Assembly (NCBI RefSeq): GCF_007992435.1
Contig: NZ_BKAG01000038.1
Span: 1 to 64,000, forward strand
Origin: Prosthecobacter gellanilyticus
GTDB taxonomy: Bacteria > Verrucomicrobiota > Verrucomicrobiia > Verrucomicrobiales > Verrucomicrobiaceae
DNA length: 64,000 nucleotides
Direction of reading: 5' to 3'
Position 1 is the stretch's first letter, and every line of letters begins with the position of its first letter. A program made the translations under genes and the position numbers. Of the stretch, positions 1 to 12,201 are shown piece after piece. A model generated the notes under the pieces. It made no database searches. It worked only from the letters and a program-made list of their open reading frames with translations, and was not told the DNA's origin.

Positions 1-34
1 TGAAGTCCGCGCTCCGGCGGCGCTGGAGACTTCA
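1..34. repeat. Inverted repeat upstream of the first sulfatase
   Basis: TGAAGTC at 1-7 is the exact reverse complement of GACTTCA at 28-34, with a GC-rich interior. It could be the hairpin of a gene that ends outside the window, or a dispersed palindrome. A related GC-rich stretch begins near 24940. Confidence 0.4.
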
Positions 35-86
35 GCATTTTGCATCTCTTGAAATCATCGGACGTTTGCGTCGTTACAGCGCGGCC

Positions 87-1898
87 ATGATCCGTCTCTT
101 CTCCTGTGCCTTACTCTCGCTGTGCTGCTCGGTGCTCTCCGGGGCGCAGCCGAACCTGCTCATCATCACCGCAGATGACATGAGCTGTGATTCCGTGGGT
201 GTGTATGGCTGCAAGCTGAAGGACACGACGCCGAACATGGACAAGCTGGCGGCGCAGAGCCTGCGGTTCAATCAAGCGCATGTGGTGGTGGGAAACTGCA
301 TGCCCTCGCGCAATGTGATGTGGTCGGGGAAGTATCCGCATAACAACGGGATCGAGGGCTTTGTCCCCATCCCGAGGGAGGAGAAGAAATATCCCGTGCT
401 GGGAGAGATCGTGAAGGACGCCGGATGGTTCACGGGCATTCGTCACAAGGTCAGCCACTCCACACCTTATTCACCGTTTCCGTGGGACATCGTGCTGGGT
501 GACGAGCGGAAGGACAATGCGAAGAACCCACCCTCCTGGGGCAAGGCCGCGACGACGGGCATTGAAGCCGCGAAGAAGGCCGGCAAGCCTTTCTGCCTGC
601 TGCTGAACATCGCGGATCCGCACAAGCCCTTCTATGCTGAGGGCAAAGGAGGCAAGACCATCCCGGATGACAATGTGCCGTCGCGTGTTTTCACGCCGGA
701 AGAGGTGCCGGTGCCGGGCTTTCTGCCGGATGATCCGATCGTGCGCAAAGAGCTCTCGCACTACTACTCCAGCGTGCGGCGTGCGGATGATTCGGTGGGT
801 GAGATCCTCGCCGCCTTGAAAGCTTCCGGCCAGGATGAGAACACCATCATCGTCTTCCTTTCGGATCATGGCATGCCGCTGCCCTTTGCGAAGACACAGC
901 TTTATCATCACAGCTCACGCACACCACTCATGATCCGCTGGCCCGGCGTGACGAAGGCGGGCGCTGTGGATGATGAGCACATGATCTCCACGGTGGATCT
1001 GCTGCCGACGATCCTCGACATGTTGCAGATCAAGCAGCCAGGCGGGTTTGACGGCTCTTCCTTTGCGGGCGTGCTGCGCGGCGAGAAGCAGCCTGAGCGC
1101 ACGATGGTCTTCAAGGAGCACAATGAAAACTCCGGCGGCCAGAACACACCCATGCGCGCGGTGCAGACGAAGGACTGGCTGTATATCTTCAGCCCGTGGT
1201 CGAACGGAAAGCGTATCATGACCGGCGCCACGAACGGCACCTCCACCTGCCGCCAGATGCGTGTCCTGGCGAAATCTAACGAACAGATCGCCGGTCGCAT
1301 CGATCTCTTTGATCATCGTGTGCCGGAGGAGGCTTATGAGGTGCGCTATGATCCGGATGCGCTGACGAACCTCATCGCGAAGCCGGAGAATGCCGCGCAG
1401 GTGGCGGCGCTGGAAAAGGCGCTGGAAGACTGGATGGTGCGCACGGGTGATCCGCTGCTGGAGGTGTTTCGCAAGCGTGAGGATGCGGCGTTTCGTGAGA
1501 GCTATATTTCAAATTTGGAGAAGCAGCAGGTGAGTCGCAAGGATCGCAAGGCTAACAAGGCGGAGATGAAGAAGGCCGCTGCTCCGAAGAAGCCTGCCGC
1601 GCTGATTTCACTCGAGCATCCTGAGTCTGTCACTCATGGTCAGAAAGCCATCGTGAAGCTCAAGCACAACCTGCCGGAAGATCTCGGCGAGAAGCCGATT
1701 CAAATCACCATCAAGGACGGCAGCGGAGCGCGCATCGAGCGCAAGGAGGTCATGGCCAGCGGCACGGGTGTGATCGAGGTGACCTTTGACATTCCCGCCG
1801 AGGTGAAGGGCAAAAAGATCAGCTTCGCGGGGCTGGTGGGTAAGAGCATCAAAGACACCTTGCAGCATCTGCAGTCAGAGCCGGTGCCGGTGGAGTAA
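87..1898 (+). CDS. Secreted sulfatase (formylglycine-dependent)
   Basis: Predicted arylsulfatase-family hydrolase of 603 aa, exported and probably acting on sulfated polysaccharide. Residues 1-20 form a signal peptide. The Asp pair at 30-31 in LLIITADD is the first metal-binding site. CMPSR at 71-75 is the C-x-P-S-R motif whose Cys is converted to formylglycine by a maturase. An SDHG metal motif lies near residue 257. After the sulfatase fold comes a Lys/Ala-rich linker (about 480-515) and a final ~90-residue stretch that looks like a beta-sandwich, an unusual extension. The ATG at 87 was chosen because the signal peptide starts there; a TTG at 66 would add seven residues before it. The exact substrate cannot be read from sequence. 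Confidence 0.9.
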   Translation: MIRLFSCALLSLCCSVLSGAQPNLLIITADDMSCDSVGVYGCKLKDTTPNMDKLAAQSLRFNQAHVVVGNCMPSRNVMWSGKYPHNNGIEGFVPIPREEKKYPVLGEIVKDAGWFTGIRHKVSHSTPYSPFPWDIVLGDERKDNAKNPPSWGKAATTGIEAAKKAGKPFCLLLNIADPHKPFYAEGKGGKTIPDDNVPSRVFTPEEVPVPGFLPDDPIVRKELSHYYSSVRRADDSVGEILAALKASGQDENTIIVFLSDHGMPLPFAKTQLYHHSSRTPLMIRWPGVTKAGAVDDEHMISTVDLLPTILDMLQIKQPGGFDGSSFAGVLRGEKQPERTMVFKEHNENSGGQNTPMRAVQTKDWLYIFSPWSNGKRIMTGATNGTSTCRQMRVLAKSNEQIAGRIDLFDHRVPEEAYEVRYDPDALTNLIAKPENAAQVAALEKALEDWMVRTGDPLLEVFRKREDAAFRESYISNLEKQQVSRKDRKANKAEMKKAAAPKKPAALISLEHPESVTHGQKAIVKLKHNLPEDLGEKPIQITIKDGSGARIERKEVMASGTGVIEVTFDIPAEVKGKKISFAGLVGKSIKDTLQHLQSEPVPVE

Positions 1899-1900
1899 TG

Positions 1901-1985
1901 AAAGTGGGACAGGTTTGCAACCTGTCTGCGCGCCAACACCTGCAACGCTGCGAACAGGAAACAGATTGAAAACCTGTTCCACTTT
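1901..1985. repeat. Imperfect 16-bp inverted repeat after the sulfatase
   Basis: AAAGTGGGACAGGTTT (1901-1916) and AAACCTGTTCCACTTT (1970-1985) are reverse complements with one mismatch. A smaller palindrome, GACAGGTT-TGC-AACCTGTC, sits at 1907-1925. The element starts 3 bp after the sulfatase stop and abuts the first ATPase-associated palindrome. It may double as a terminator structure. Confidence 0.6.
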
Positions 1986-2037
1986 GTCGATTTCGTGCCT
2001 GAACATCGTGCATAATTCCAGGCACCAAATCAACCAA
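1984..2037. repeat. ATPase-associated palindrome H1
   Basis: Left arm 1984-2001 (core GTCGATTTCGTGCCTG), right arm 2019-2037 (core CAGGCACCAAATCAAC). First of five related hairpins around the ATPase gene. The arms differ at one position in the core (C form on the left, G form on the right). Confidence 0.85.
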
Positions 2038-2090
2038 ATGTCGATTTGGTGCCTGAAGTTTCGGGGATTTTTCAGGCACGAAATCGACAT
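2038..2090. repeat. ATPase-associated palindrome H2
   Basis: Left arm 2038-2057, right arm 2071-2090, core GTCGATTTGGTGCCTGAA against TTCAGGCACGAAATCGAC. It follows H1 directly and ends 8 bp beyond the ATPase stop codon. The single internal mismatch (G form left, C form right) is the mirror of that in H1. Confidence 0.85.
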
Positions 2091-2098
2091 CGGCTGCC

Positions 2099-3538
2099 TC
2101 ACGCCTTCCTCATCAGGCCTTCCATGGGCACCAGGAAGTCGAACTCATCACGTTCTTCGATGCCTGAGGCGAGCTCGCCGGTGTAGATGAGACCGGTGCG
2201 GACGGAGTGGCCTTGGGGGAGCTTGAGGCGGGTGATCTTTTCATTCACCTCGTCGACGACAGCAGCTCCGATCTGAGGGCGCATCTTGATCTCGAAGACA
2301 TAGAGGCAGCGGCGGGTGCGGATGAGCAGGTCAATCTGGCAGCCTTTGCGGCGAAGGGTCTGCTTCTGATGGTAAGGGCCGGCGTTGAGCACGAGCTTCT
2401 TGTCCAGACCGATGTGGGAGAGCAGGATGTCCAGGTTCGCATGGACGAGGTTCTCGAGCTGAAGGCCGAGGATGCTGTCCCAACCCGGCAGCTTCTCCAG
2501 CGCGGTGTTTTTGAGCAAACCCTTCGCGATGCGTGATTTCACGGGATCCACATATTTCAGGTAGAAGCGCAGGTAGTTGTCCGAGAGACGGTAGCGCGCA
2601 TCACGCGGGCGGCTCTGGCCGGTCTCAGGATCAAAAGGAATGTCGCGGGTGATGAAGCCTGCTTGCTCGAGTTCGCTGAGCGATCCGCTGAGGCTGCCAC
2701 CACGGGCACGCTCGAGTTCCTCGCTGATCTGGTCCACGCTGTGGGAGCCGTCCACCAGGGTGCGCACGATCTCGCGATAGGTCTCGGCACGGCGGGTGAA
2801 AATATCGTGGAAGATGCTGTCGAACTCGTTGAAGAGCATCCCGGAAGGATGAAAGCAGAGATCCGCAATATTTTGTTCGGCAGTGCGCGCGGGATTGATC
2901 TCCTCAAGGTAGCGCGGCACGCCGCCGGTGACGGCCAGGAGGCGGAGCTTTTCCACCGGGCTGATGCGTGATCCGCGCCTGCCCCAGAACTGCACGCAAT
3001 CAGGAAGCGTGAGCGGGCCCAGGCGGAACTGCCAGGAGCAGCGGCCGACGAAGCCGGTGTTGTTGAGGATGTTTTGCTCGATCCAGGATGACACAGAGCC
3101 GCAGAGCACCACGACCAGCCGCTGGCGTTTGGAAAAAAGAGTGTCCCAGGCAGTCTTGAGATGTCCGGGGAAGTCCGCATCACCAATGGCCATCCAGGAG
3201 ATTTCATCCAGCAGGATCACGACGGTGCCGCTGGCCGGGATCTGGCTGGCCAGGAGCTGGAAGGCGGTGGGCCAGCCATCGAGGTGGACCTTGGGAGCCT
3301 TGGTCTGTTTCGCGAGCTGATCCGCAAAGGCATCCAGCTGGGCCTGGCGGTTGATGTCCTCACGCGGAGGCAGGCCCATGAAGCTGAGGAAATAGTCCGC
3401 CTCCTGCGCGCATTCGGTGATGAAGCGGCTCTTGCCGATGCGCCGGCGGCCCTGGCATGTCACGAGAGAGGCGGTTCTCTTTTGAAGAAGCCTCCTGAAC
3501 TCCTCACGCTCCGCGCTGCGGCCAATATAACCGTCCAT
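2099..3538 (-). CDS. Archaeal-type AAA ATPase fused to a DUF234-like nuclease domain
   Basis: 479-aa predicted P-loop ATPase of the archaeal ATPase (PF01637-like) type. Walker A is GRRRIGKS at 30-37 and Walker B is VVILLDE ending at D111-E112. A winged-helix-like middle region follows. The C-terminal domain (about 400-479) contains D403...E416-I-K418, the spacing expected of the PD-(D/E)xK-like DUF234 fold, so a nuclease activity is possible. A start at 3607 would translate palindromic DNA; the ATG at 3538 gives the family-like N-terminus MDGYIGRSAERE, so it is preferred. There is no operon partner, and the gene sits alone between five copies of one palindrome family. Biological role unknown; a selfish or mobile unit is an inference. 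Confidence 0.85.
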   Translation of the reverse strand: MDGYIGRSAEREEFRRLLQKRTASLVTCQGRRRIGKSRFITECAQEADYFLSFMGLPPREDINRQAQLDAFADQLAKQTKAPKVHLDGWPTAFQLLASQIPASGTVVILLDEISWMAIGDADFPGHLKTAWDTLFSKRQRLVVVLCGSVSSWIEQNILNNTGFVGRCSWQFRLGPLTLPDCVQFWGRRGSRISPVEKLRLLAVTGGVPRYLEEINPARTAEQNIADLCFHPSGMLFNEFDSIFHDIFTRRAETYREIVRTLVDGSHSVDQISEELERARGGSLSGSLSELEQAGFITRDIPFDPETGQSRPRDARYRLSDNYLRFYLKYVDPVKSRIAKGLLKNTALEKLPGWDSILGLQLENLVHANLDILLSHIGLDKKLVLNAGPYHQKQTLRRKGCQIDLLIRTRRCLYVFEIKMRPQIGAAVVDEVNEKITRLKLPQGHSVRTGLIYTGELASGIEERDEFDFLVPMEGLMRKA

Positions 3539-3546
3539 GATATGAA

Positions 3547-3599
3547 ATGTCGATTTGGTGCCTGAAAAACTGGCCATACTTTTGGCACGAAATCGACAT
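3547..3599. repeat. ATPase-associated palindrome H3
   Basis: Left arm 3547-3566, right arm 3580-3599 (slightly degenerate on the loop side). It lies 8 bp upstream of the ATPase ATG, so the mRNA leader or promoter of that gene overlaps it. Same internal G/C-form mismatch as H2. Confidence 0.85.
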
Positions 3600-3600
3600 G

Positions 3601-3651
3601 ATGTCAATTTGGTGCCTGAAAGTGACGCCCTTTTCCAGGCACCAAATCAAC
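3601..3651. repeat. ATPase-associated palindrome H4
   Basis: Left arm 3601-3620, right arm 3633-3651. The most divergent copy: it has GTCAATTT instead of GTCGATTT. It is the only copy whose two arms match at the otherwise conserved mismatch position. Confidence 0.85.
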
Positions 3652-3654
3652 TAA

Positions 3655-3707
3655 TTGTCGATTTCGTGCCTGGAAAATAAATGAAAGTTCAGGCACCAAA
3701 TCGACAT
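3655..3707. repeat. ATPase-associated palindrome H5
   Basis: Left arm 3655-3673 (C form), right arm 3688-3707 (G form). The right arm ends on the first base of the stop codon of the convergently placed O-antigen ligase-like gene, which marks the outer boundary of the repeat block. Confidence 0.85.
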
Positions 3708-5602
3708 CAGCGGGCCGGAGGCTGCGCGCGCATCAGGGCGGCGTGCTCCAGCATGAGGCGGTAGCTGCTCAGCCAGTTGGCCGTGTCTCCCTGGTTCATG
3801 GCCCAGGAGTCGCGAGCCCAGAGGTAGGCGGCTTCGGCCTTCTCCCAGTCACCCAGACGATGCCAGTGAATGCCTAGGGCCACACGCGGCTCCTCATGAT
3901 GCGGGGCGAGCTTGATGGACTCATGGATGGCGGCGAGCGCATCATCATAACGGCCGACGGCATCATAGGCATCCGCTAGGGCGAGGTCGTATAAGTGGTT
4001 ATACGGATTGAGCGAGATGGCGTGCTCGAGGTCGTCGATGACTTGTTTCAGCGCGGGGCTGTCTGGGGCGCGATCCTTGTCGGTGAGGGTGTCGAGCACA
4101 GCGAGGCCGCGCTGGTAAAAGACCTCGCCATTGGTGGGGTCGAGACGCACAGCGTCATCGAGATGGGCTTTGCGAGCAGGGGCGTCTTTGCGCGCCTCAG
4201 CGAGCTGAGCCTGGGTGAGCGCCATGTCGCCACGGCCATAGCACCAGGCACCGGCGAGAAGGGCGATCGAGGCGATGCCGAGGGTGATCTTGGTCAGCAC
4301 GCGCACTCCAGGCAGGCGGAGGAGCGGACGCTGCATCTGCTCAAAGCCAGGATTCGCCAGTACACCCAGCAGCAAGGCGCCCGTGAGCGCGGTGGCGGGC
4401 ACGTGGTAGTGAAACTCAAACAGCGCATGCACCAGGGTGGCTGCGATCGCGGCTAGCGCGCCGAGGCAGAGCGCGAGGTTCATGCTCAAGACCCGTCCGC
4501 TGTTGAGGAAGCGCTCACGCACAAACCAGCGCAGGTAGCGACAGCCGTTCAGGATGTGAGCGAGGACCAGCAGCAGCAGCATGCCGACACCGATCCAGCC
4601 GTAGTCGGCGAGCAGTTGAAAGTGCTCGTTATGCGCAAAGAGCGGCTCAGGAGCCCATTGCGGAAGCTTGTCAGAGCGCAGGCGCGTGCCGCCATCATAA
4701 AACATGCGCGCCCCGGCTCCGGTGAGCGGATGCTCCGCATTCTGGCGGATGGCGGACTCCCAGATGCCCAGGCGGATGTCACTGGTCATGGCGAGGCGTT
4801 CAGTTCGTCCGCGGAGGTATTCCTCATTCACCTTCCACAGCACTGCACCGCAGAGAAGGCTCATCACAATGCCGCCACCGAGCAGGCTCCAGAACATGTG
4901 GCGCTGGGTCTGCCAGATCATCCACAGGGCGAGCATGGCAAAGACAAAACTGCCCGCCACAAGTCCGAAGAGGGCGCCACGGCTGACCGTGAGAGACATG
5001 CCCACGGCCATGGCCACGCAGCAGAAGGCCAGCCAGAGCTTGAGCACTGAGCCGCCACGACCAAAGCAGAGCCAGCCGGCGGAGAGGAAGAGCGCCACGG
5101 AAAGAAAGGCAGCGAGGTGGTTGGCATTGGCAAAGAAGCCGCCGATGCGCCCGGGCTCCGCAGGCCGCAGGAAGTGCGGCACGACATGGAAGCCCCAGTT
5201 TCCCGAGAGATGAATGGAACCCACAGCGAGGTTTCCCATGACGAGCAGCAGCAGCACGGCGAGCCAAGCCATGCGCCAGCGCGGATGACTGGCCGCGGTG
5301 ACGGTGAGGATGTAGGTGACGAGACAGCCGAGCAGGATGATGGCGTCTTCGCGCGCATAGGCACTGACGGGAGAGCACACGGCGCGACCGATCATGTAGG
5401 CGGCAAAGGCCAGCGTGGTGGCGAGGCAGACATCACTCGGTGGAAAGAGGATGCGAAGACGCCAGCGCAGAGTCGCGAACAAGCCTGCGATGCCGAGCAG
5501 GATGGCTCCAGGCCAGAAAAACAGCAGGCGTGTTTCCGTGCCGAGCACGCCTGTGACGAGCAGGGCGAGGAGGAAGAGGACAAGCGCGGCGGTTTGCAGC
5601 AT
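3707..5602 (-). CDS. O-antigen ligase/Wzy-like membrane protein with C-terminal TPRs
   Basis: 631-aa polytopic membrane protein. Residues 1-~445 hold about ten to twelve hydrophobic segments. The Wzy_C/O-antigen ligase signature is visible: GGFFANANHLAAFL, then a TVSRGALFGL segment. The last ~170 residues are soluble and read as tetratricopeptide repeats, for example the region with YDLALADAYDAVGRYDDAL and RVALGIHWHRLGDWEKAEA. Such fusions act in polymerisation or transfer of surface polysaccharide to lipid A, or in protein O-glycosylation. A GT9 heptosyltransferase-like gene nearby (7443-8447) fits an envelope-polysaccharide role, but the two are not adjacent. Sugar specificity cannot be read. 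Confidence 0.75.
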   Translation of the reverse strand: MLQTAALVLFLLALLVTGVLGTETRLLFFWPGAILLGIAGLFATLRWRLRILFPPSDVCLATTLAFAAYMIGRAVCSPVSAYAREDAIILLGCLVTYILTVTAASHPRWRMAWLAVLLLLVMGNLAVGSIHLSGNWGFHVVPHFLRPAEPGRIGGFFANANHLAAFLSVALFLSAGWLCFGRGGSVLKLWLAFCCVAMAVGMSLTVSRGALFGLVAGSFVFAMLALWMIWQTQRHMFWSLLGGGIVMSLLCGAVLWKVNEEYLRGRTERLAMTSDIRLGIWESAIRQNAEHPLTGAGARMFYDGGTRLRSDKLPQWAPEPLFAHNEHFQLLADYGWIGVGMLLLLVLAHILNGCRYLRWFVRERFLNSGRVLSMNLALCLGALAAIAATLVHALFEFHYHVPATALTGALLLGVLANPGFEQMQRPLLRLPGVRVLTKITLGIASIALLAGAWCYGRGDMALTQAQLAEARKDAPARKAHLDDAVRLDPTNGEVFYQRGLAVLDTLTDKDRAPDSPALKQVIDDLEHAISLNPYNHLYDLALADAYDAVGRYDDALAAIHESIKLAPHHEEPRVALGIHWHRLGDWEKAEAAYLWARDSWAMNQGDTANWLSSYRLMLEHAALMRAQPPAR

Positions 5603-5658
5603 GGGCAGGATTTACAGGGCGGACTTGGGCGGTGCAAGACAAGTCGGGAAGCACTGAA

Positions 5659-5686
5659 TTTTAACCGCAGATCACGCAGAGGGCAC
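5659..5686. repeat. Dispersed 28-bp repeat, copy 1
   Basis: TTTTAACCGCAG followed by ATCACGCAGAGGGCAC. The reverse complement of this 28-mer recurs at 22543-22570 with one difference. Related (A)CCACAGAGGACACGGAG stretches are found near 62150 and 63022. Confidence 0.6.
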
Positions 5687-5706
5687 CGATGATTGAGCAA
5701 CAGAAA

Positions 5707-5732
5707 GCGCAGCCCCCTTTCGAGGGCTGCGC
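5707..5732 (-). terminator. Rho-independent terminator of the di-haem gene
   Basis: GCGCAGCCC (5707-5715) pairs with GGGCTGCGC (5724-5732). On the minus strand the stem is followed by TTTCTG. It lies 42 bp beyond the stop of the 5775-7268 gene. Confidence 0.65.
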
Positions 5733-5774
5733 CAGCCTATGGTACCAACTTATGCGTTAACACACCTTGTGCAC

Positions 5775-7268
5775 TCACAAGGAATTGATGAACTCGATCA
5801 ACTGCTGCCGCTCCGCCGCGGTGAGCTGGGTGTAGCGGGTGCGTGAGGCGAGGCCCTCGCCATCATGGGCGCGGACGGCTGCATCGATCGAGGGAGCACG
5901 ACCATCATGCAGATAGGGTGCGCTGACACGCACGCCCCAGAGCGGAGCGGTTTTCATTTCACGAGCACCTGCGTCTGCCTGCACGATGCCGTCACCGAGA
6001 CGGCCCATGTCATGCAGCAGCAGGTCGGAATACAGAGCCACTTCCTTTTCGCTGAGCGCGGCGATGACGTTCACTCCCGTGGTCATGCTGGGTGTGTGGC
6101 ACACCGCGCAGCCGGTGGAGGTGAAGAGCGCCTGGCCAGCCGTGGCATTCGCCGTCAAGGCACGTGGTGGCAGCGGTGCCAGCAGGCGCATGAAGTCCGC
6201 GCTGTGGTCGATGTCCGCCTTGCCGGTCACGGGATCGATGGTGTCCTCGGGATCATTCACGCGGTCATGCGTGGCCAGCACATCCGCCTTGCCATTCGGC
6301 GCATTCTCCGTGGGGAAGAAGCGGCTGGTGATGCCCATCTCATTGACATAAGCATCTGCAGAGAAGGCAAGCAGCGTGGCCTGCTGGGCCTTCCAGCCGA
6401 AGCGTCCGACACGCTCATCACCCGTGGTCACGTCCGTGATGATGGCGGCACGGCCGAGCACGCCGTCAGGTTTGCCAGCGACTTCCCCCGCGAGGATGGT
6501 CTCATCCGGAATCGCTTCGATGAGGCCGAGGCCAAACAGCGCGGTGGTCTGGCGCCGCACAATCACATTCGCCTCGCGAGGCACGACCTCACGCGCGGCA
6601 GGGTGGATGGACATGTTCTGCAGCAGCGAGCCGCCGAGCGAGGCGAGCGGGTCAAAGATATCATTCGTTGTTCGGCCAAAGCGCGTGACGTTGATGGTGC
6701 CGGCTCCGCCGATGCCACCCTGCACATGGCAGGCCGCGCAGGAGTTGCGGTTAAAGATGGGGCCGAGACCTCCGGCGGCATCTTCGCGGTTGTTGAACTC
6801 CAGCCGACCATCCGCAAAAGCCACGAGATCAGCATTGCTCAAACCCGGAAGCGGATCGGCGGCGCGTGGCGGGCCACTGTGGCGTGCCATCATCTGATGC
6901 GGAGGCCGGCGGCGCTGAGAATTGCGCATGGGAGGAGGTCCTCCTTGGGGCGGCTGACCAGCGGTCGGTGGTTTCGGCGCACCGGCAGGAGGTTGCTGGC
7001 CCGCAGGAGGTTGTTGGCCGGCGGGAGGTTGTTGGCCGGCGGGAGGTTGTTGCCCGGCAGGAGGTTGTTGCCCGGCAGGAGGTTGTTGCCCGGCAGGAGG
7101 CTGCTGCCCAGCAGGAGGTTGCTGCCCTGCCACGGGTGGTTTTGGAGCACCAGCGGGTGGCTGCTGCCCTGGGGGTGGCGGCGGGCTGTCGGTGGTCTGA
7201 CCGAAGGTGATCCCGGCTACTGCGGTGAGCAGCAGGATGAGATGGTGAGGTCCGGTGGTAGGTTTCAT
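5775..7268 (-). CDS. Di-haem oxidoreductase-like c-type cytochrome with a QQPPAG repeat
   Basis: 497-aa exported protein with a signal peptide (1-23). Two CxxCH haem sites are present: CAACH 177-181 and CAVCH 387-391. The body, with an early FNRNSCAACH segment and a late TAPLWGVRVSAPYLHDGRA segment, matches the di-haem oxidoreductase (DHOR, PF06537) family related to bacterial cytochrome c peroxidases. Between the signal peptide and the first haem lies a Pro/Gln-rich linker with eight tandem QQPPAG hexapeptides (residues 49-96) plus one isolated copy at 35-40. This probably forms an extended spacer across the periplasm or wall. Electron donor and substrate are not evident. It stands as a single-gene unit with its own terminator. 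Confidence 0.85.
   Translation of the reverse strand: MKPTTGPHHLILLLTAVAGITFGQTTDSPPPPPGQQPPAGAPKPPVAGQQPPAGQQPPAGQQPPAGQQPPAGQQPPAGQQPPAGQQPPAGQQPPAGAPKPPTAGQPPQGGPPPMRNSQRRRPPHQMMARHSGPPRAADPLPGLSNADLVAFADGRLEFNNREDAAGGLGPIFNRNSCAACHVQGGIGGAGTINVTRFGRTTNDIFDPLASLGGSLLQNMSIHPAAREVVPREANVIVRRQTTALFGLGLIEAIPDETILAGEVAGKPDGVLGRAAIITDVTTGDERVGRFGWKAQQATLLAFSADAYVNEMGITSRFFPTENAPNGKADVLATHDRVNDPEDTIDPVTGKADIDHSADFMRLLAPLPPRALTANATAGQALFTSTGCAVCHTPSMTTGVNVIAALSEKEVALYSDLLLHDMGRLGDGIVQADAGAREMKTAPLWGVRVSAPYLHDGRAPSIDAAVRAHDGEGLASRTRYTQLTAAERQQLIEFINSL
6981..7124. repeat. Eight tandem 18-bp repeats inside the di-haem gene
   Basis: Eight nearly identical 18-bp units on the plus strand (type CCGGCAGGAGGTTGTTGC), each encoding QQPPAG on the minus strand. 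The perfect 18-bp period makes copy-number variation by slippage likely. Confidence 0.9.
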
Positions 7269-7442
7269 GGCTTGGGAGGTGCTGAATGTTTTGGGAAGTT
7301 ATTTTCCCTTTTTCAGCGCCTAACCTGATGTGGCCATGTGAAGGAATGATGATGCCTGACCCGGAGATTTGTTAAGGCTGGGTAAATGTGGTTAGACTTC
7401 CAGGCAGCCCTGGGAGGTCGTGCTAACCCAGCATCGCTCGCA

Positions 7443-8447
7443 TCAAAGCCTGCCCAGCACCCATCCGCCAATCTGCCTGGCGGCTTCGGGGGTGAGTTCG
7501 GACTCGGTGAGGACTTCCTGGTCGGTGAAATCCTGGCGATGAGAAATGCGACCTGCCTTCCAGACCCAGGCTTTCGGATTGTAGGGGCCGACTTTTCGCG
7601 GGTTGCTCCAGGTGTGGAGGCCTAACGTATTGTCATTTATGGCAGCGGCGATGTGCATGGGGCCGCTGTCCACACTGATGACCCAGCGTGCATGACGCAG
7701 GCAGGCGATGAGCTCGGCCAAAGAGGTGCGATGGCTGAAATCCGTGATGTGCGCACCGGTGGGGCGGGATTTGTCATCACTCATGCCGACAAGCACCACG
7801 GGATGCGGTGCGAGGGCATCACAAAGGGTCTGCAAGGCTTCGGGCGAGAGGGACTTCCCAGCTCCGCGTGACCATGGATGGAGGACAATGAGGTCGTCAC
7901 GCTGCGGCCAGTCAGAAGGAAGAGTGCCAGGAGCGAGAGGGAAGCTCAGGTGATCAGCATCAATGGTTAGGCCAAGTGCGCGGGGCAGGGTGAGGTAGCG
8001 GTCGACGGCATGTGCGGATGCATCCACCGGGATCACGTGGTCATGCATGAGCCGGGCACCTTCGCGGGAATCCGAGAGGCCGAGAATGGGACGTGCGCGG
8101 CTGGCACGGGAGAGCACGGCGCTGCGGAGGAGGCCCTGGAAGTCGAGCACAAGCTCGGGCTGGGTTTGGCCGGGCAGGGTGGCACGGGCCCAGCGCGCGG
8201 CTTTGAAGATGGCGGTGAGGCCACGGAAGCTCTTGCGGGGAAAGGCGATGACTTCATCGAGCCACGGGGCGCCTTGGAGAAGAGGAGTCCACTCGGTGTT
8301 CGCCACCCAGCGGATGCGCAGATGCGGGTGCGCATGCTTGATGGCATGCACGGCAGGCAGCGTGTGCACGATGTCTCCCAGCGAGCTGGGTTTGACGATC
8401 AGGACTGATCGAAAATCCGCGAGGTTGGGCAACGCGGTGTCAGTCAT
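7443..8447 (-). CDS. Glycosyltransferase family 9 (heptosyltransferase-like)
   Basis: 334-aa GT9/WaaC-WaaF-type enzyme. The N-terminus LIVKPSSLGDIVHTLPAV is the classic GT9 nucleotide-sugar fold entry. A second half motif, HPWSRGAGKSLS (about 195-206), and VISVDSGPMHIAAA (about 258-271) are the donor-binding elements of this family. It likely transfers a heptose or similar sugar to lipid A core in the cytoplasm. The start is 3 bp after the stop of the upstream metallophosphatase (8451-9173), so the two form an operon. The acceptor is not predictable, and verrucomicrobial LPS cores are poorly known, so the name is kept general. Confidence 0.85.
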   Translation of the reverse strand: MTDTALPNLADFRSVLIVKPSSLGDIVHTLPAVHAIKHAHPHLRIRWVANTEWTPLLQGAPWLDEVIAFPRKSFRGLTAIFKAARWARATLPGQTQPELVLDFQGLLRSAVLSRASRARPILGLSDSREGARLMHDHVIPVDASAHAVDRYLTLPRALGLTIDADHLSFPLAPGTLPSDWPQRDDLIVLHPWSRGAGKSLSPEALQTLCDALAPHPVVLVGMSDDKSRPTGAHITDFSHRTSLAELIACLRHARWVISVDSGPMHIAAAINDNTLGLHTWSNPRKVGPYNPKAWVWKAGRISHRQDFTDQEVLTESELTPEAARQIGGWVLGRL

Positions 8448-8450
8448 GGG

Positions 8451-9173
8451 TCACTTGCCGAGAGCGAGGCGGTCCGCGAGCAGGGAGGGGAGGCCAGCGG
8501 CGCGGATCTTGTCCTGCGCGGTCTGGATGTCATATTCGAGGCGACGGATGGAGATGGTCTGCGCCTGCACATCATAGATGGCATAGGCGGCGCGCCAGTC
8601 GCCATCACGGGGCTGGCCCACGCTGCCGACATTGACGAAATACTTCACACCGCGCTGGAGCTGGACCTCAGTGCCGCGCGCAGCGCGCACGGAGTCGTCC
8701 TTTTCAAAGATGCGCGGGACATGCGTGTGACCGTAGAAGCAGACCTGAGTGAACTGGTAGCTGAAGCTGGCCATCGCATCAAAGCGGTTGGTCACGTAGC
8801 CCCAGCTTCCGGGGGAATCCAGCGTGGCGTGGACGATGGTGAAGTCACGCACCTGGCGGACGAGCTTCAGATCACGCAGCCACTGGCGCTGCTCCTCGCT
8901 GAGCTGGTCACGGGTCCAGAGGAGGGCGGCCTGGGCCAGGGGATTCAGCTCCTCCAGCTGGGATTCGCTGGCGGCGCCTTCGTCATGATTCCCACGGACC
9001 ACCGGGCAGCCCATCTGGCGCACGGTTTCCAGGCACTCGGCCGGATTCGCGGCATAACCGACGATGTCACCGAGGCAGACATAGTTTCCACACCCCTGCT
9101 CATGGGCATCCCACAGCACTGTCTGGAGGGCTTCCAGATTGGCGTGAATGTCTCCGAAGATGGCAAATTTCAT
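8451..9173 (-). CDS. Calcineurin-like metallophosphoesterase
   Basis: 240-aa cytoplasmic phosphoesterase with all metal-site motifs of the superfamily: GDIH (D8, H10), GDIVGY (D36), GNHDE (N62-H63-D64) and GHTH (about 187-190). The overall pattern fits the YfcE/MJ0936-type and diadenosine-tetraphosphatase-like group (Metallophos_2). Possible substrates are phosphodiesters or nucleoside polyphosphates; none can be assigned. First gene of a two-gene unit with the GT9 gene, separated by 3 bp. Confidence 0.85.
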   Translation of the reverse strand: MKFAIFGDIHANLEALQTVLWDAHEQGCGNYVCLGDIVGYAANPAECLETVRQMGCPVVRGNHDEGAASESQLEELNPLAQAALLWTRDQLSEEQRQWLRDLKLVRQVRDFTIVHATLDSPGSWGYVTNRFDAMASFSYQFTQVCFYGHTHVPRIFEKDDSVRAARGTEVQLQRGVKYFVNVGSVGQPRDGDWRAAYAIYDVQAQTISIRRLEYDIQTAQDKIRAAGLPSLLADRLALGK

Positions 9174-9303
9174 CAGTGGGCAAGGGCAGGGTAGGGTCTA
9201 GGGGGCGCGCACACTCGGGGCGAGTGTCAGAAAATCAAGCGCTTAGACAATTGTTGGACAGGTGGCTAAACGGGCCGTGTGGGTAATGGATAGGGCAGTG
9301 TGT

Positions 9304-10584
9304 TTACTGGATAGGTGCGGAAGTTAGGCCGGCGCTGTTCACGGCGGTAACGGTGTAGGTGGCCTTTTCTGGCGCGTTCGGGTCGAGGAATTTCATCTCA
9401 GGCAGCGGGGCTTCCGGCGTGTCGTGATACGACATCGACTGGAAGAGCGGACGGCCAAACTTGCCCACGGGCTTCGCAGGGACCCGGCCCACCTCGCGCC
9501 CATCGCGCATGATGATGAACTGTTGAATCCCGCTTTCGAAGTCGGCCTCGGCATCCCATGATACTGAATAGCCATTTTCGGTGCGGACTGTTACAATCTT
9601 TGTAGGGGCAGGCGGCGGGGTGCTGTCCTGCGTGGAGCCGGTCTTCACATACTGGCTCCAGCTCTGGGCGACTTTTTCGTCCGGTAGCCAGACAGATTCC
9701 TCCGGCTTGCTCTTAAAATCAGCCGCGCTTTGGGCACTCTCCCCGAGCAGCGGTGCCAGCCAGCCTTGGGAAACATCCACCATCCTCAGCTGCGTGCCCG
9801 TTTCAGGAAGCCGGAGGCGCAGGCAGGCATCGAAGAAGGGAATGGCCAGGTAGCGTGAGTCCCCGCACTGATGGCTGGTCAGCGGATCTGGAGCGAAGCC
9901 GATGGGCGCGCCCTTGGCCCGATAAGCATGAAACATGGCCAGGCTGCCGGTCCAGGCGCCGTTGAAGCGCTTGTCACCATTCTCCTTGGCACCGGGATTG
10001 CACATCATGGGGATGGCATACATGGCCTCAGGCAGTTCAGGCTTCGGGATCTCGCCCTTCTCCCAGGTGGCAAAAGCGGTGCCGGAGCGGAACCAGATGC
10101 CCACGATGCGCTCCGGGTGCCGGGTTTGCAGAATGCTGGACCAGAAACCGCCACCGCTGTGACCCCACAGGCACCAGGGCGCTTTCGCCAGTTCCGGGTG
10201 GCCGGACTTGGTGGCCAGATCATCCAGGCTGCGGAGGAAGGTCTTTTCAGAGCCGTTGCGTGGATCACACCACATGCGGCAGTCTTTGCCCTCGGGCTGA
10301 TGGTAGGAGGGGCCCAGCAGCGCGCAGTTGTGCTTCTTCGCCAGGGCCTGCCAGTGCAGATCATAGGCCGCCGTCGCCCCACCTTTGCAGGCACCCTCAC
10401 CACAGCCATGCTGATGCACGATGACTCCGCGCACCTGCTTCACCTCCTCAGGCAGCCACACCGTGTAGGTCACGCCGTAGATCAGTTCGCCGGGCTTTTC
10501 AGAAGGCGGATACTCCACCGTGAAGTAGCTGCCAGCCGCGTGGGTGAGCAGAGGGAAAAGGCAGAGGAGAGCCGCGAAGCGCAT
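9304..10584 (-). CDS. Secreted alpha/beta hydrolase with a C-terminal FnIII-like domain
   Basis: 426 aa with a signal peptide (MRFAALLCLFPLLTHAA). The serine nucleophile elbow is GHSGG with Ser about 143, typical of poly(3-hydroxybutyrate) depolymerase/esterase-like alpha/beta hydrolases. Conserved-looking Cys residues (HQHGCGEGAC) suggest disulfides. After a Pro-rich linker (TPPPAPTKIV) the last ~100 residues read as a fibronectin type III-like beta domain. The ATG at 10584 was chosen because it opens the signal peptide; the longer open frame to 10647 runs into the region of the divergent creatininase gene. Substrate unknown. Confidence 0.75.
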   Translation of the reverse strand: MRFAALLCLFPLLTHAAGSYFTVEYPPSEKPGELIYGVTYTVWLPEEVKQVRGVIVHQHGCGEGACKGGATAAYDLHWQALAKKHNCALLGPSYHQPEGKDCRMWCDPRNGSEKTFLRSLDDLATKSGHPELAKAPWCLWGHSGGGFWSSILQTRHPERIVGIWFRSGTAFATWEKGEIPKPELPEAMYAIPMMCNPGAKENGDKRFNGAWTGSLAMFHAYRAKGAPIGFAPDPLTSHQCGDSRYLAIPFFDACLRLRLPETGTQLRMVDVSQGWLAPLLGESAQSAADFKSKPEESVWLPDEKVAQSWSQYVKTGSTQDSTPPPAPTKIVTVRTENGYSVSWDAEADFESGIQQFIIMRDGREVGRVPAKPVGKFGRPLFQSMSYHDTPEAPLPEMKFLDPNAPEKATYTVTAVNSAGLTSAPIQ

Positions 10585-10687
10585 GATGAAGGCATTTTCA
10601 TCGTGTGAACGAGGCCGCGTCAATGAAGATGCTTGGCAAGAGCACACCGCGAGTGCTGTATTTCGACAACAACTTACTTTCTATCCC

Positions 10688-11464
10688 ATGAACTCACCCC
10701 GCCCCTGGATGATCGCCGAGACGAACTGGAAGCATGTGAAGGCCACGCGCTATGAGGTGGCCGTGCTCCCCTGGGGTGCCACCGAGGCGCATAACTGGCA
10801 TTTACCCTATGCCACGGACAGCCTGCAAAATGAGGCCATGACGGCCGAGGCCGGACGCATCGCCTGGGAGGCTGGCGCGAAGGTGGCCATCCTGCCAAAC
10901 ATGCCGTTTGGCGTGCAGACAGGCCAGCTCGATATCCCCTTCTGCATCAACATGAACCCGAGCACGCAGATGGCGGTGCTGGAGGACACCATCTCATGCC
11001 TGGAAGGCGTGGGCGTGCCGAAGTTCGTGGTCTTCAATGGCCACGGTGGCAATGACTTCCGCCAGATGCTGCGTGAGCTGCAGGCGCGCCACCCCAAGAT
11101 TCATCTCAGCGTCGTGAACTGGTTCCACATGGATGCCGGGAAGGACATCTTCACCATCCTCGGCGATCACGCGGACGAGCGTGAGACCAGCCTGCTGCTG
11201 CATCTGCACCCCGACCTCGTTTTGCCGAAAAGTGACTGGGGCGAGGGCAAGGACAACCTGCCCATCCTCAAAGCCATGCGGGAGAAATGGGCCTGGTCCC
11301 AGCGTCCGTGGACCCAGGCCACGAATGACACCGGCTCCGGTGATCCGCAGCACTCCACGGCGGAGAGAGGCGCGCAGTATTTCGAACGCCTCACTCAGAA
11401 GTTCGCCAGCTATCTCATTGAGCTCGCCGCAGCAGATGCCACGCGGCTTTACCAGAAGGCGTGA
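10688..11464 (+). CDS. Creatininase-family amidohydrolase
   Basis: 258-aa protein of the creatininase/creatinine amidohydrolase family (PF02633). Family metal ligands are visible: PWGATEAHNWHLPYATD (E33, H35, D44) and FNGHGGND (about 119-126), plus an ERETSLLLHLHPDLV segment (about 165-179). Members hydrolyse cyclic amides or formamides, for example creatinine or FAPy intermediates, in the cytoplasm. The ATG at 10688 gives the normal family N-terminus; a longer reading from 10544 overlaps the divergent hydrolase gene and is not homologous-looking. Monocistronic and convergent with the barrel protein gene. The actual substrate is not predictable. Confidence 0.85.
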   Translation: MNSPRPWMIAETNWKHVKATRYEVAVLPWGATEAHNWHLPYATDSLQNEAMTAEAGRIAWEAGAKVAILPNMPFGVQTGQLDIPFCINMNPSTQMAVLEDTISCLEGVGVPKFVVFNGHGGNDFRQMLRELQARHPKIHLSVVNWFHMDAGKDIFTILGDHADERETSLLLHLHPDLVLPKSDWGEGKDNLPILKAMREKWAWSQRPWTQATNDTGSGDPQHSTAERGAQYFERLTQKFASYLIELAAADATRLYQKA

Positions 11465-11481
11465 AGAGCAAAAACAAAACA

Positions 11482-11505
11482 CCCGCAACCGGTGAAGGCT
11501 GCGGG
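11482..11505 (-). terminator. Terminator of the outer-membrane barrel gene
   Basis: CCCGCA (11482-11487) pairs with TGCGGG (11500-11505). On the minus strand the stem is followed by a T-rich run (TGTTTTGTTTTTG). It lies between two convergent genes, so it may act in both directions. Confidence 0.65.
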
Positions 11506-11544
11506 CGCAGAGTTGATTAGGTTCGTGTGAACCAACCTGGATGA

Positions 11545-12201
11545 TTAGAACTTGAAGCGGACGCCGACGTTCAGGCCGAACACGTCTTCCAGCACGTCGT
11601 TGCTGCCCAGACCGAAGGTGCCGGTCACGAAGAGGTCCACTTTGGGGCAGACTTCATACAGAGCGCGGGCGAAGGCGCTCCACTCTGTGGGAGCCACGTC
11701 GTTGCTGTTGTAGGTCACGCCACCGTGAACTTCAAAGGCACCGAACTTGGCGCGGACATGCGGAGTCACGTAGACACCCCAGTCGTCCAGGTTGCCGAAA
11801 CCACCGAGGTCCAGATCTGCGTAGTGAGCGCCGACTTCCGTGACGAAATGCACGTTGTGTGCCAGGGGGATGTAGCCACCCACGCCGCCGTTGAGAGTCC
11901 AGTAGTCAGCGTTCACGCTGCCGCCAGGGCCGCTGAGTTCCGCATCGCTCCAGGAACCGCCGAGAGCCAGGTAGAGGTGATTCACCGGGGAGTATTCCAG
12001 AGCAGCCGCGACGCCGTTGCTGTCCACGTCGAGGTCACTGAAGCCGTCCACGTTGGCCCACTGGCGCAGCCAGGAGACGGACACGTTGCTGTAGGAGATG
12101 TCATCAGGCTCGACGGTCGGAGGAACGGCAGGGGCAGGGGTGCCAGCGTGAGCGAGGGTGCAGGAGGCGAGGGCCAGCGCGGCCAGTGTCTTTTTCAGCA
12201 T
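11545..12201 (-). CDS. Outer-membrane beta-barrel protein
   Basis: 218 aa with a signal peptide (MLKKTLAALALASCTLAHA). The mature chain alternates polar and hydrophobic residues in segments such as HLYLALGGSW and VDLFVTGTFGLG, and ends in VGVRFKF. A C-terminal Phe is the usual BAM-recognition signal. Small size suggests an OmpA/OmpW-like eight-stranded barrel, with Asp/Gly-rich loops that could bind Ca2+. The start at 12201 begins the signal peptide. Single-gene unit with its own terminator. A specific porin or adhesin function cannot be inferred. Confidence 0.75.
   Translation of the reverse strand: MLKKTLAALALASCTLAHAGTPAPAVPPTVEPDDISYSNVSVSWLRQWANVDGFSDLDVDSNGVAAALEYSPVNHLYLALGGSWSDAELSGPGGSVNADYWTLNGGVGGYIPLAHNVHFVTEVGAHYADLDLGGFGNLDDWGVYVTPHVRAKFGAFEVHGGVTYNSNDVAPTEWSAFARALYEVCPKVDLFVTGTFGLGSNDVLEDVFGLNVGVRFKF

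Follow-up and report, generated by a model that had tools for sequence, protein, structure and literature searches.

The closest described relatives of the locus studied here belong to PDC-S27, a PADLOC candidate defence system (PF01637 ATPase_2 with DUF234) that is described in the text of PMC12988326 as an ATPase fused to a PD-(D/E)XK superfamily domain, and the protein considered below, P0001, is of the same family. One survey in that text counts 3503 archaeal and 4562 bacterial PDC-S27 genes; validation is pending for most PDCs, and the anti-phage role of PDC-S27 is that of a candidate only (PMC12988326). The terms "palindrom", "inverted repeat" and "hairpin" do not occur in the main text of that paper, and relative to PDC-S27 as presented there, the cassette and its private palindromes are added here. 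Among the matches listed in the open-licence PMC literature, no report of palindromes associated with these genes was found. We know of no established mechanism for PDC-S27, and the defence role of P0001 is an annotation that makes the protein a candidate.

Palindromes beside the gene for a DNA-acting enzyme are a feature of REP/RAYT (REPIN) systems, and this is their likeness to the present locus; the differences are that the palindromes here are undispersed and that no HUH/Y1 (RAYT) transposase gene is present in the cassette unit, whose sole gene is that of the ATPase. A REP/RAYT system was rejected on these grounds, all six exact half-site matches in the 7.65-Mb genome lying at the ATPase locus. 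In Tn7, the same two enzyme types, TnsA (PD-(D/E)XK) and TnsC (AAA+), act at the element ends as separate proteins alongside the TnsB transposase, whereas the cassette unit contains no TnsB-like partner. Toxin-antitoxin systems of the Xre-RES type are two-gene operons with a separate DNA-binding antitoxin, in contrast to the single gene here. Their likeness lies in the palindromic sites of the promoter, which in toxin-antitoxin systems such as Xre-RES are operators bound by a product of the operon (PMC12204516). Finally, the text of PMC3119063 describes PATEs and IS605-type elements of Haloquadratum with palindromes near their ends and no target duplication, and deletion of the core leaves a palindromic remnant of about 52 bp that resembles the solo palindromes reported below (PMC3119063). 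These elements, however, are tied to IS200/IS605 transposases and occur in many copies per genome (PMC3119063), whereas here the sole gene encodes an ATPase-nuclease.

A single ATPase-nuclease gene flanked by five palindromes

The window (the whole stretch of DNA analysed, 64,000 nucleotides from Prosthecobacter gellanilyticus) contains five palindromes of 51 bp around the single ATPase-nuclease gene, two downstream and three upstream, just as a sequence-only reading of this DNA had described them. The features of the locus are the following.

66..1898, plus strand: sulfatase gene, a neighbour outside the cassette
1985..2035, unstranded: H1, downstream palindrome
2039..2089, unstranded: H2, downstream palindrome
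2099..3538, minus strand: ATPase gene P0001 (479 aa; PDC-S27 family)
3548..3598, unstranded: H3, upstream palindrome unit 1, containing a poor -10-like hexamer
3579..3584, minus strand: putative -10 position, CAAAAG, a poor match, 17 bp after the -35 box
3602..3607, minus strand: putative -35 box TTGACA
3602..3652, unstranded: H4, upstream palindrome unit 2, with TTGACA (minus strand) in its gene-proximal arm
3656..3706, unstranded: H5, upstream palindrome unit 3, the outer cassette edge
3707..5602, minus strand: Wzy_C O-antigen ligase-like gene with TPR, a neighbour outside the cassette

The gene-proximal end of H3 lies 9 bp ahead of the ATG of the ATPase gene, and H5 directly adjoins the Wzy_C stop codon (3707-3709). 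Each palindrome unit is built of two half-sites, each with an independent G-or-C base, so that several of the units are imperfect hairpins. A search of the window with GTCGATTTSGTGCCTG at up to 3 mismatches yielded 11 matches, 10 of them at the ATPase locus, compared with a mean of 1.42 and a maximum of 6 in the shuffle control at the same threshold. Allowing up to one mismatch in the half-site yielded nine matches in the entire genome, all at the ATPase locus. Pfam scanning of 33 of the 54 predicted window ORFs (the ATPase included) found no transposase, in line with the claim that none is present, and no obvious defence family, and a defence island was rejected on this basis.

P0001 consists of an N-terminal AAA+/ATPase_2-like part that is ORC/Cdc6-like, a winged-helix-like middle and a C-terminal PD-(D/E)XK nuclease-like domain. 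The Walker motifs (A, GRRRIGK; B, LLDE) and the D403/E416-I-K418 pattern were found as the sequence-only reading had given them, and the Walker residues together with E362, D403, E416 and K418 are invariant across 19 homologues. The PADLOC profile for PDC-S27 matches residues 1-421 of P0001 with E = 2.1e-79 and also matches all five relatives scanned. Against Pfam PF01637 ATPase_2, P0001 scores 31.7 bits, below the curated cut-off of 33.2, the clade B protein scores 30.3 bits and four other relatives score 42.5-61.3 bits; by this measure P0001 would at best be a divergent member of the PF01637 superfamily. Weak wHTH matches were obtained in two of five relatives. The C-terminal part resembles EndoMS/MspJI/McrC, with EndoMS-type, MspJI, McrBC and Hjc proteins among the matches of a fold search (best E = 7.7e-4).

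Conservation of the array and its promoter-like signals

An upstream array of the same kind, placed just before the gene and in a 54-bp register, is present in seven close orthologues and in five 55-59% relatives of the genus. Upstream half-sites were found in 13/13 array-bearing copies (six in 10 copies, five in two and four in one), while random 260-bp windows contain a mean of 0.41. The unit spacing is 54 bp in 23 of 25 steps and 53 and 55 bp in the others, and three of the 38 array units deviate from 51 bp, one measuring 50 bp and two 52 bp. In clade A, with the 50-bp unit excluded, the arms are 79-93% identical compared with 35-50% for the centres, which vary in sequence at constant length; the arms carry position-specific changes that are preserved in orthologues, as in vertical descent. 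Among the 13 array-bearing copies, only that of P. gellanilyticus has the downstream pair in register, and G024 and G015b each show two weak, out-of-register half-site matches downstream. Within its clade, the earlier description of the gene as caged on both sides applies to this genome alone, although other clades do show palindromes on both sides. The G023 contig stops 53 bp after the gene, and the clade A gene of G014 is split into two matches with an ambiguous stretch.

TTGAC is fixed in the middle unit, where all 13 clade A/B arrays have it, but is not wholly restricted to that unit, as G023 carries a further copy in its unit 3; the -10 match of clades A and B is poor. A promoter-like score of at least 10 was obtained for 41% of loci in the phylum survey compared with 5% of shuffles. 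In an analysis restricted to loci that have a palindrome and a promoter score of at least 9, palindrome centres of the phylum set cluster near -62 (9/35, reached by 21/5000 permutations), and this clustering was not repeated in the wide survey (1/33). Palindromes also lie past the stop codon in P. gellanilyticus, in clade C and at L211, L214, L228, L233, L237, L244, L410, L411 and L413, and these are not explained by promoter control. The geometry at the putative promoter points to regulation no less than to mobility.

The most likely reading is that P0001, an AAA+/winged-helix/PD-(D/E)XK protein of the candidate defence type PDC-S27, has its own DNA sites at the putative promoter and that these travel with it, most probably for autoregulation. 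We lean towards regarding the locus as a one-gene cassette of a protein and its own palindromic sites, with the binding, autoregulation and defence nuclease proposed here. The only product of the cassette would bind as an oligomer, its winged helix contacting the half-sites, and in the resting state this binding would control its own promoter, the putative -35 box of which falls within the array. If binding were lost, for example through titration or altered DNA, expression of the nuclease, which would act in defence, would rise. More speculatively, the palindromes might double as ends for movement of the cassette.

Alternatively, the upstream repeats could be transcribed as a structured RNA, either type III toxin-antitoxin-like or as a guide-RNA-like array with variable centres. 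Fixed-length tandem repeats ahead of a nuclease-like gene would suit such a system, as would the folding of the array as RNA (-92.3 kcal/mol, shuffles -39.5), but any array of palindromes would trivially fold strongly. Sense-strand G-T mismatches outnumber A-C mismatches in clades A and B (52 versus 26), with 13 of the 52 stemming from a single fixed -35 change, whereas the stem mismatches of the two surveys show no RNA-strand bias (29 G-T versus 31 A-C); an RNA hairpin was set aside on the survey result, though clades A and B alone lean RNA-ward. Furthermore, G-G or C-C clashes are frequent at the N position, the number of palindromes is just one in many relatives, some relatives have a palindrome after the stop codon, and Rfam yielded no match in window positions 1-12000. 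A guide-RNA array was set aside, as the position-specific changes of the arms follow descent, and an RNA-based system as a whole appears quite improbable.

The gene and its array as one unit

Comparison between genomes shows that the gene and its array form one unit, located at different genomic sites and present or absent at matching sites. In copies at different loci, homology reaches from the outer palindrome to the last codons or the stop. Between the G024 and G031 copies, identity is 93.4% over -173 to +3 and nothing else matches; the homology of other clade A pairs also stops near those places. The same unit pattern is repeated outside the genus by L365/L383, and clade C has the structure palindrome-gene-palindrome, with homology from -53 to +52. 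Two sites are occupied in some genomes and unoccupied in others, the distribution is patchy (8/35 genus genomes at >=70% identity), and solo clade C palindromes without the gene are found in G010, at the same site, and in P. gellanilyticus at G000:C5:77698-77740. The palindromes go with the gene and not with the place: the check proposed in the sequence-only reading found that the same palindromes accompany orthologues at different loci, and array and gene are present or absent together. Neither outcome named there as refuting was observed: orthologues are not generally without the palindromes, nor are these scattered through the genome independent of the gene. The "new kind of selfish unit" proposed in that reading is kept here as a hypothesis.

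The stopping points of homology, the clade C structure, the occupied and unoccupied sites and the patchy presence would also fit an autonomous mobile element, in which the ATPase-nuclease reads the palindromes as ends and, without a known transposase, places an excised or copied cassette at a new site, and the solo clade C palindromes are as would be left by recombination between flanking palindromes or by failed homing. However, clade A has one copy per genome with no burst of identical copies, no clear target-site duplication was found at the two sites where junctions were read by eye, and most clade A and B copies are without a right-end palindrome. Other machinery or recombination in the flanks could also transfer the cassette, and gene loss at a site could mimic insertion. 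While it is possible that the enzyme itself moves the cassette, we regard the autonomous element as rather unlikely; a cassette that moved itself would represent a transposable element of a new kind.

A search for the empty site of the P. gellanilyticus insertion found no close sulfatase homologue beside Wzy_C-homologue loci (1.5 kb flanks), with one match of 30%, at L071. In the corresponding search for the G008 copy, the upstream neighbour had a weak paralogue next to it in several genomes of the match table. From about 0.9 kb past the clade A gene, G014 and G031 have 3.3 kb of DNA in common and may therefore represent a single site.

Palindromes in the wider family

Upstream palindromes were found in 54/78 relatives, with 24/78 having none at the survey threshold, compared with 9/104 control ORFs, which came from the same loci and were unmatched for intergenic length. 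The 78 relatives derive from 80 loci, two of which were left out for too little upstream DNA, and these 80 are the best of at least 549 relatives and lean towards the kind of the query. In the phylum survey (60 loci, with one excluded as no gene was found and one for too little DNA), upstream palindromes were found in 49/58, compared with 1/290 shuffles and 2/232 in-gene windows, and 9/58 had no palindrome at threshold. On plasmids and phages, where 12 of the 23 matches listed were sampled, an upstream palindrome was present in 6/6 bacterial plasmid copies (score >=10 in four) and, at score 9, in 0/5 haloarchaeal plasmid copies and 0/1 phage WO member. Across the family, the palindrome rule is general, not universal, and the palindrome-free relatives and haloarchaeal plasmid copies indicate that not every part of the family depends on the sites. 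DUF4143 ATPases (PF13635), which we take to be PDC-S01, have a sister architecture to the PDC-S27 type. From 30 of their loci, five without a usable frame, 25 were assessed; three (L262, L264, L265) are bounded on each side by a 37-bp palindrome and 19 have no upstream palindrome at score 12.

These surveys also bear on passive hitch-hiking, in which the palindromes would be unrelated structural DNA, such as terminators or REP-like repeats, lying near the genes by chance. A REP-like repeat is indeed common in the P. gellanilyticus genome, with one copy touching H1, and some survey palindromes are terminator-like (e.g. downstream of L238). Nevertheless, the pattern is restricted to the gene in this genome, the palindromes are kept in orthologues and differ between paralogues, and their frequency greatly exceeds that in control ORFs and shuffles, leaving hitch-hiking extremely improbable. 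Ordinary terminators were rejected, as the half-site logic and the private sequences argue otherwise.

Turning back to self-recognition by each protein, the comparisons show that relatives carry different palindromes, that same-genome paralogues compared do not share them, and that the sites lie at the putative promoter end of the gene, in the 54-bp register. With one palindrome taken per locus, none of 68 same-genome paralogue pairs had 11/14 arm bases matching. Protein and palindrome similarity are correlated (Mantel rho 0.23; 0/2000 permutations) by a measure that takes one of two nested palindromes and therefore understates similarity, and similar arms were found in 2/4 pairs of the top protein-similarity band. 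Many bacterial relatives have a different palindrome at this position, suggesting that each enzyme may recognise and be controlled by its own DNA tag. Such private palindromes would keep paralogues from cross-talk. As a private palindrome lies beside most surveyed bacterial members, each protein comes with a candidate DNA substrate, making binding, specificity, autoregulation and cleavage directly testable, and a genome with many paralogues, each having a different site, would serve as a natural library for learning how the protein reads DNA.

A broader proposal is a whole class of bacterial units with one gene each, which would be mobile elements or mark themselves for defence. In these, a PD-(D/E)XK nuclease fused to an ORC-like AAA+/winged-helix ATPase would recognise a private palindrome for self-control and would move, copy or protect its cassette without a known transposase or recombinase, with paralogues kept separate by their palindromes and solo palindromes as footprints. 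We hold this class to be unlikely.

At the level of single loci, L365, L383 and L387, with proteins 78-85% identical, have a half-site in common in opposite arrangement. An extra palindrome 291 bp upstream of L365, outside the 68-pair count, has a GGGCGACTA core in common with the palindrome of L363 in the same genome.

An ATPase gene framed by its own palindromes

The sequence-only reading had placed five copies of one palindrome around a single ATPase gene, and this arrangement was borne out as five 51-bp units, each consisting of two half-sites (arms) and a centre, with two units downstream (H1, H2) and three upstream (H3-H5).

1985-2035 and 2039-2089: palindromic units beyond the stop codon, 51 bp each
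2099-3538, minus strand: ATPase gene (product P0001, 479 aa)
3548-3598, 3602-3652 and 3656-3706: palindromic units before the start, 51 bp each

With up to three mismatches allowed, the half-site pattern has 11 matches in the window, 10 of which lie at this locus (shuffle mean 1.42). The earlier reading had seen no further copy of the palindrome in the window; across the 7.65-Mb genome all six exact half-site matches, and all nine at one mismatch or fewer, fall at this locus. On the upstream side the array borders directly on the stop codon of Wzy_C, one neighbouring gene, and the other neighbour is a sulfatase. In line with the statement that no transposase is present, Pfam annotation of 33 of the 54 predicted window ORFs gave neither a transposase nor an obvious defence family besides the ATPase. 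A REP-like palindrome (GTGGGACAGGTTTNCAACCTGTC) at 1901-1985, unrelated to those of P0001, touches H1 and has 25 matches (up to three mismatches) in this genome, often as inverted pairs.

P0001 falls below the Pfam ATPase_2 cut-off (31.7 bits against 33.2) and matches the PADLOC PDC-S27 profile over residues 1-421 (E = 2.1e-79). PDC-S27 has been described as a fusion of an ATPase with a member of the PD-(D/E)XK superfamily, and as a candidate defence system without a validated mechanism (PMC12988326); a related architecture is described for DUF1703 (PMC1913061). The Walker A/B and D403/E416/K418 pattern noted earlier stood up to comparison, as the core Walker residues, E362, Q401, D403, E416 and K418 are invariant in 19 homologues. 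The best solved structural match to the AlphaFold2 model (mean pLDDT 90.6) is a Walker-type ATPase of Pyrococcus abyssi, followed by ORC/Cdc6 proteins and NLR-type ATPases. Modelled separately (pLDDT 82.7), the C-terminal 180 residues match PD-(D/E)XK enzymes, including a P. abyssi repair endonuclease, MspJI, McrBC, EndoMS and Hjc, a moderate match given its best E of 7.7e-4. Weak, sub-cut-off Pfam hits in two of five relatives are the only indication of a winged helix lying between these parts.

Conservation of the array within the genus

Among 35 genomes of the genus, clade A, to which P0001 belongs (at least 70% identity), has a copy in eight, this one included (an ambiguous stretch divides that of G014), and five copies at 55-59% identity were found of clade B. 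Every one of the 13 copies has half-sites immediately before the gene: 10 copies have six, two have five and one has four, where random 260-bp windows hold 0.41. Of 25 steps from one unit to the next, 23 measure precisely 54 bp (the others 53 and 55), and the unit length of 51 bp is kept in 35 of 38 units despite variable centres; clade A identity is 79-93% for the arms and 35-50% for the 15-bp centres. The distance from the gene-proximal unit to the start codon is about 40 bp at most, and several copies have a possible ATG immediately at the unit's end. Among these 13 copies, only that of the window's own genome shows two downstream units in register.

Across 56 genomes of the same genus and order, half-site clusters with at most one mismatch occur only at these genes or their remnants, so the palindromes are not scattered genome-wide apart from the gene; elsewhere half-sites are single matches at about the frequency of a reversed control pattern. 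One remnant (G028:C89) retains a palindrome about 100 bp from a 31-residue piece of the C-terminal end of the protein, with 52% identity and E = 7.9e-6. Judged from these sequences, the palindrome array is a property of the gene. Decayed copies at G015:C3:637211-638487 and G010:C157:13852-15142 have half-sites next to a short leftover of the gene's C-terminal part that includes a stop codon.

The cassette as a unit with occupied and empty sites

DNA homology between clade A copies ends at the outer palindrome and at the gene end. For G024 and G031, the only match spans -173 to +3 in gene coordinates, at 93.4% identity, and G014/G024, G015/G024 and other clade A pairs have the same boundaries. 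In the fetched stretches clade A occupies at least five different sites (this genome; G024 and G009; G014 and G023; G015; G008), answering positively the question of whether one palindrome accompanies orthologues at different loci. Starting some 0.9 kb past the gene, G014 and G031 have DNA in common, and the two may represent one site.

Clade C (27-32% identity) is arranged palindrome-gene-palindrome, and its palindrome has a different sequence, of the GATTTTCTTCCTATAACG type. The upstream palindrome runs as far as the ATG in G014 and G026, where the TGA is overlapped by the downstream one; G009/G014 homology spans -53 to +52. Two sites were found in both occupied and unoccupied versions. The first, between histidyl-tRNA synthetase and a ceramidase-like gene (Pfam; 30 loci of 56 matching genomes plus a G026 contig), holds a clade C unit in G014 and G026, a single palindrome without the gene at the same left flank in G010, and a similar flank without palindrome in G031; in 14 further genomes it is empty, with the two neighbours 51-55 bp apart. 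The second, between L-lactate permease and a DUF1501 gene (Pfam), holds a clade B unit in G031, G009 and G014, a short spacer in G007, G024, G025 and G021, and a retained half palindrome in G023; others of the 30 loci have different neighbours.

Of 10 clade C palindromes that a pattern search gave in the 56 genomes, eight adjoin an ATPase gene and two stand alone. One of the two solo copies belongs to the genome of the window (G000:C5:77698-77740), and no ATPase match within 1.5 kb of it reached significance; the clade C gene is probably absent there, since a P0001 search, which finds clade C in other genomes at about 1e-37 to 1e-45, returned only P0001. Palindromes that follow the stop codon, palindromes standing alone and the exact ends of the unit would all suit a cassette that mobilises itself by means of its palindromes; we regard this as unlikely to be their main role, and take these features as a hint of a second one, in moving or marking the cassette.

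Palindromes beyond the genus

A survey took in 60 loci from other genera of this phylum. It showed an upstream palindrome at 51 of 59 loci; in the scored comparison 49 of 58 had one, against 1/290 shuffles, 2/232 in-gene windows and 7/55 downstream windows. A wider, alignment-based scan of named genomes gave at least 549 relatives, the best 80 of which were kept, by record title from Bacteroidota, Chlamydiae, Firmicutes, Proteobacteria and others. At a palindrome strength score of at least 13, these contained 48 palindromes in 31.6 kb upstream, 12 in 22.5 kb downstream, none in 117 kb of gene sequence and 19 in the other 359 kb. With the score set at 10, 54 of 78 had an upstream palindrome versus 9 of 104 control ORFs at the same loci, and 15 of 71 a downstream one.

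Many PDC-S27-like paralogues can share a genome in this phylum (14-26 first-look candidates in G327, G330, G243, G185 and G251, with 26 in G327). Five were scored in each, and their upstream palindromes differ within the genome; with one palindrome per locus, 0 of 68 same-genome pairs had 11 of 14 arm bases in common. A 99%-identical protein pair from two genomes has the same palindrome, and protein and palindrome similarity correlate modestly overall, with a Mantel rho of 0.23 that none of 2000 permutations reached. Unit boundaries also recur: the match between loci L365 and L383 (76.5% identity) begins at the outermost half-site and stops 21 bp before the end of the gene.

Three of 25 DUF4143 genes assessed, the ATPases of L262, L264 and L265, are flanked on either side by a 37-bp palindrome (TTTGAGGAATCTAAACTG...), to which the gene-palindrome rule may thus extend. 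Among 12 plasmid and phage loci fetched from 23 listed matches, all six bacterial plasmid copies had an upstream palindrome at score 9 (four at 10 or above), compared with none of five haloarchaeal plasmid copies (L420, L423, L424, L425, L426) and not the single phage WO copy; the archaeal branch may work differently. In Wolbachia phage WO record MN180249.1 (L428), an ATPase-DUF234 gene (1486-2949) directly follows the head genes.

Promoter geometry and proposed mechanism

If the hairpins acted as RNA, sense-strand stem mismatches should be G-T rather than A-C. Clades A and B together have 52 G-T and 26 A-C, with 13 of the 52 being one fixed change (23 and 15 as distinct events); the surveys gave 29 G-T versus 31 A-C, no excess, and we consider an RNA role highly improbable. 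The fixed change to TTGAC creates a -35-like box in 13/13 clade A/B arrays, always in the gene-proximal arm of unit 2 (counted from the gene), followed after 17 bp by a poor -10 hexamer; among other units TTGAC occurs in G023 unit 3 only. A promoter-like pair at score 10 or above was found at 41% of phylum loci versus 5% of shuffles. In 9 of 35 loci of the phylum set (reached by 21 of 5000 permutations), and in only 1 of 33 of the wide set, the palindrome is centred between -66 and -58 of the predicted start, where activator sites are known to lie. From these scores and positions, the palindromes adjoin or overlap a predicted promoter in many cases, with group-dependent geometry.

As each cassette has one gene, the most economical candidate for binding the private site would be the product of that gene. 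An ORC-like AAA+/winged-helix protein that bound these inverted half-sites, whose register is fixed, at the promoter of its own gene would naturally autoregulate the ATPase-nuclease gene, and a nuclease harmful to the cell when overproduced would need such control. We lean, with some reserve, towards an autoregulated cassette.

The closest analogue in form is PATE/IS605, whose core deletions leave a palindrome of about 52 bp (PMC3119063), and in logic the operator arrays of toxin-antitoxin systems. The protein family is already known as candidate defence; among the matches listed in open-licence PMC texts, no report of palindromes at these genes was found. It is doubtful that these cassettes form a new class of one-gene mobile elements or self-marking defence units, each with a private palindrome and without a known transposase or recombinase. 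Elsewhere in the window, the di-haem oxidoreductase-like protein encoded at 5775-7268 has PPAGQQ repeated in a long tandem run close to the N-terminus.
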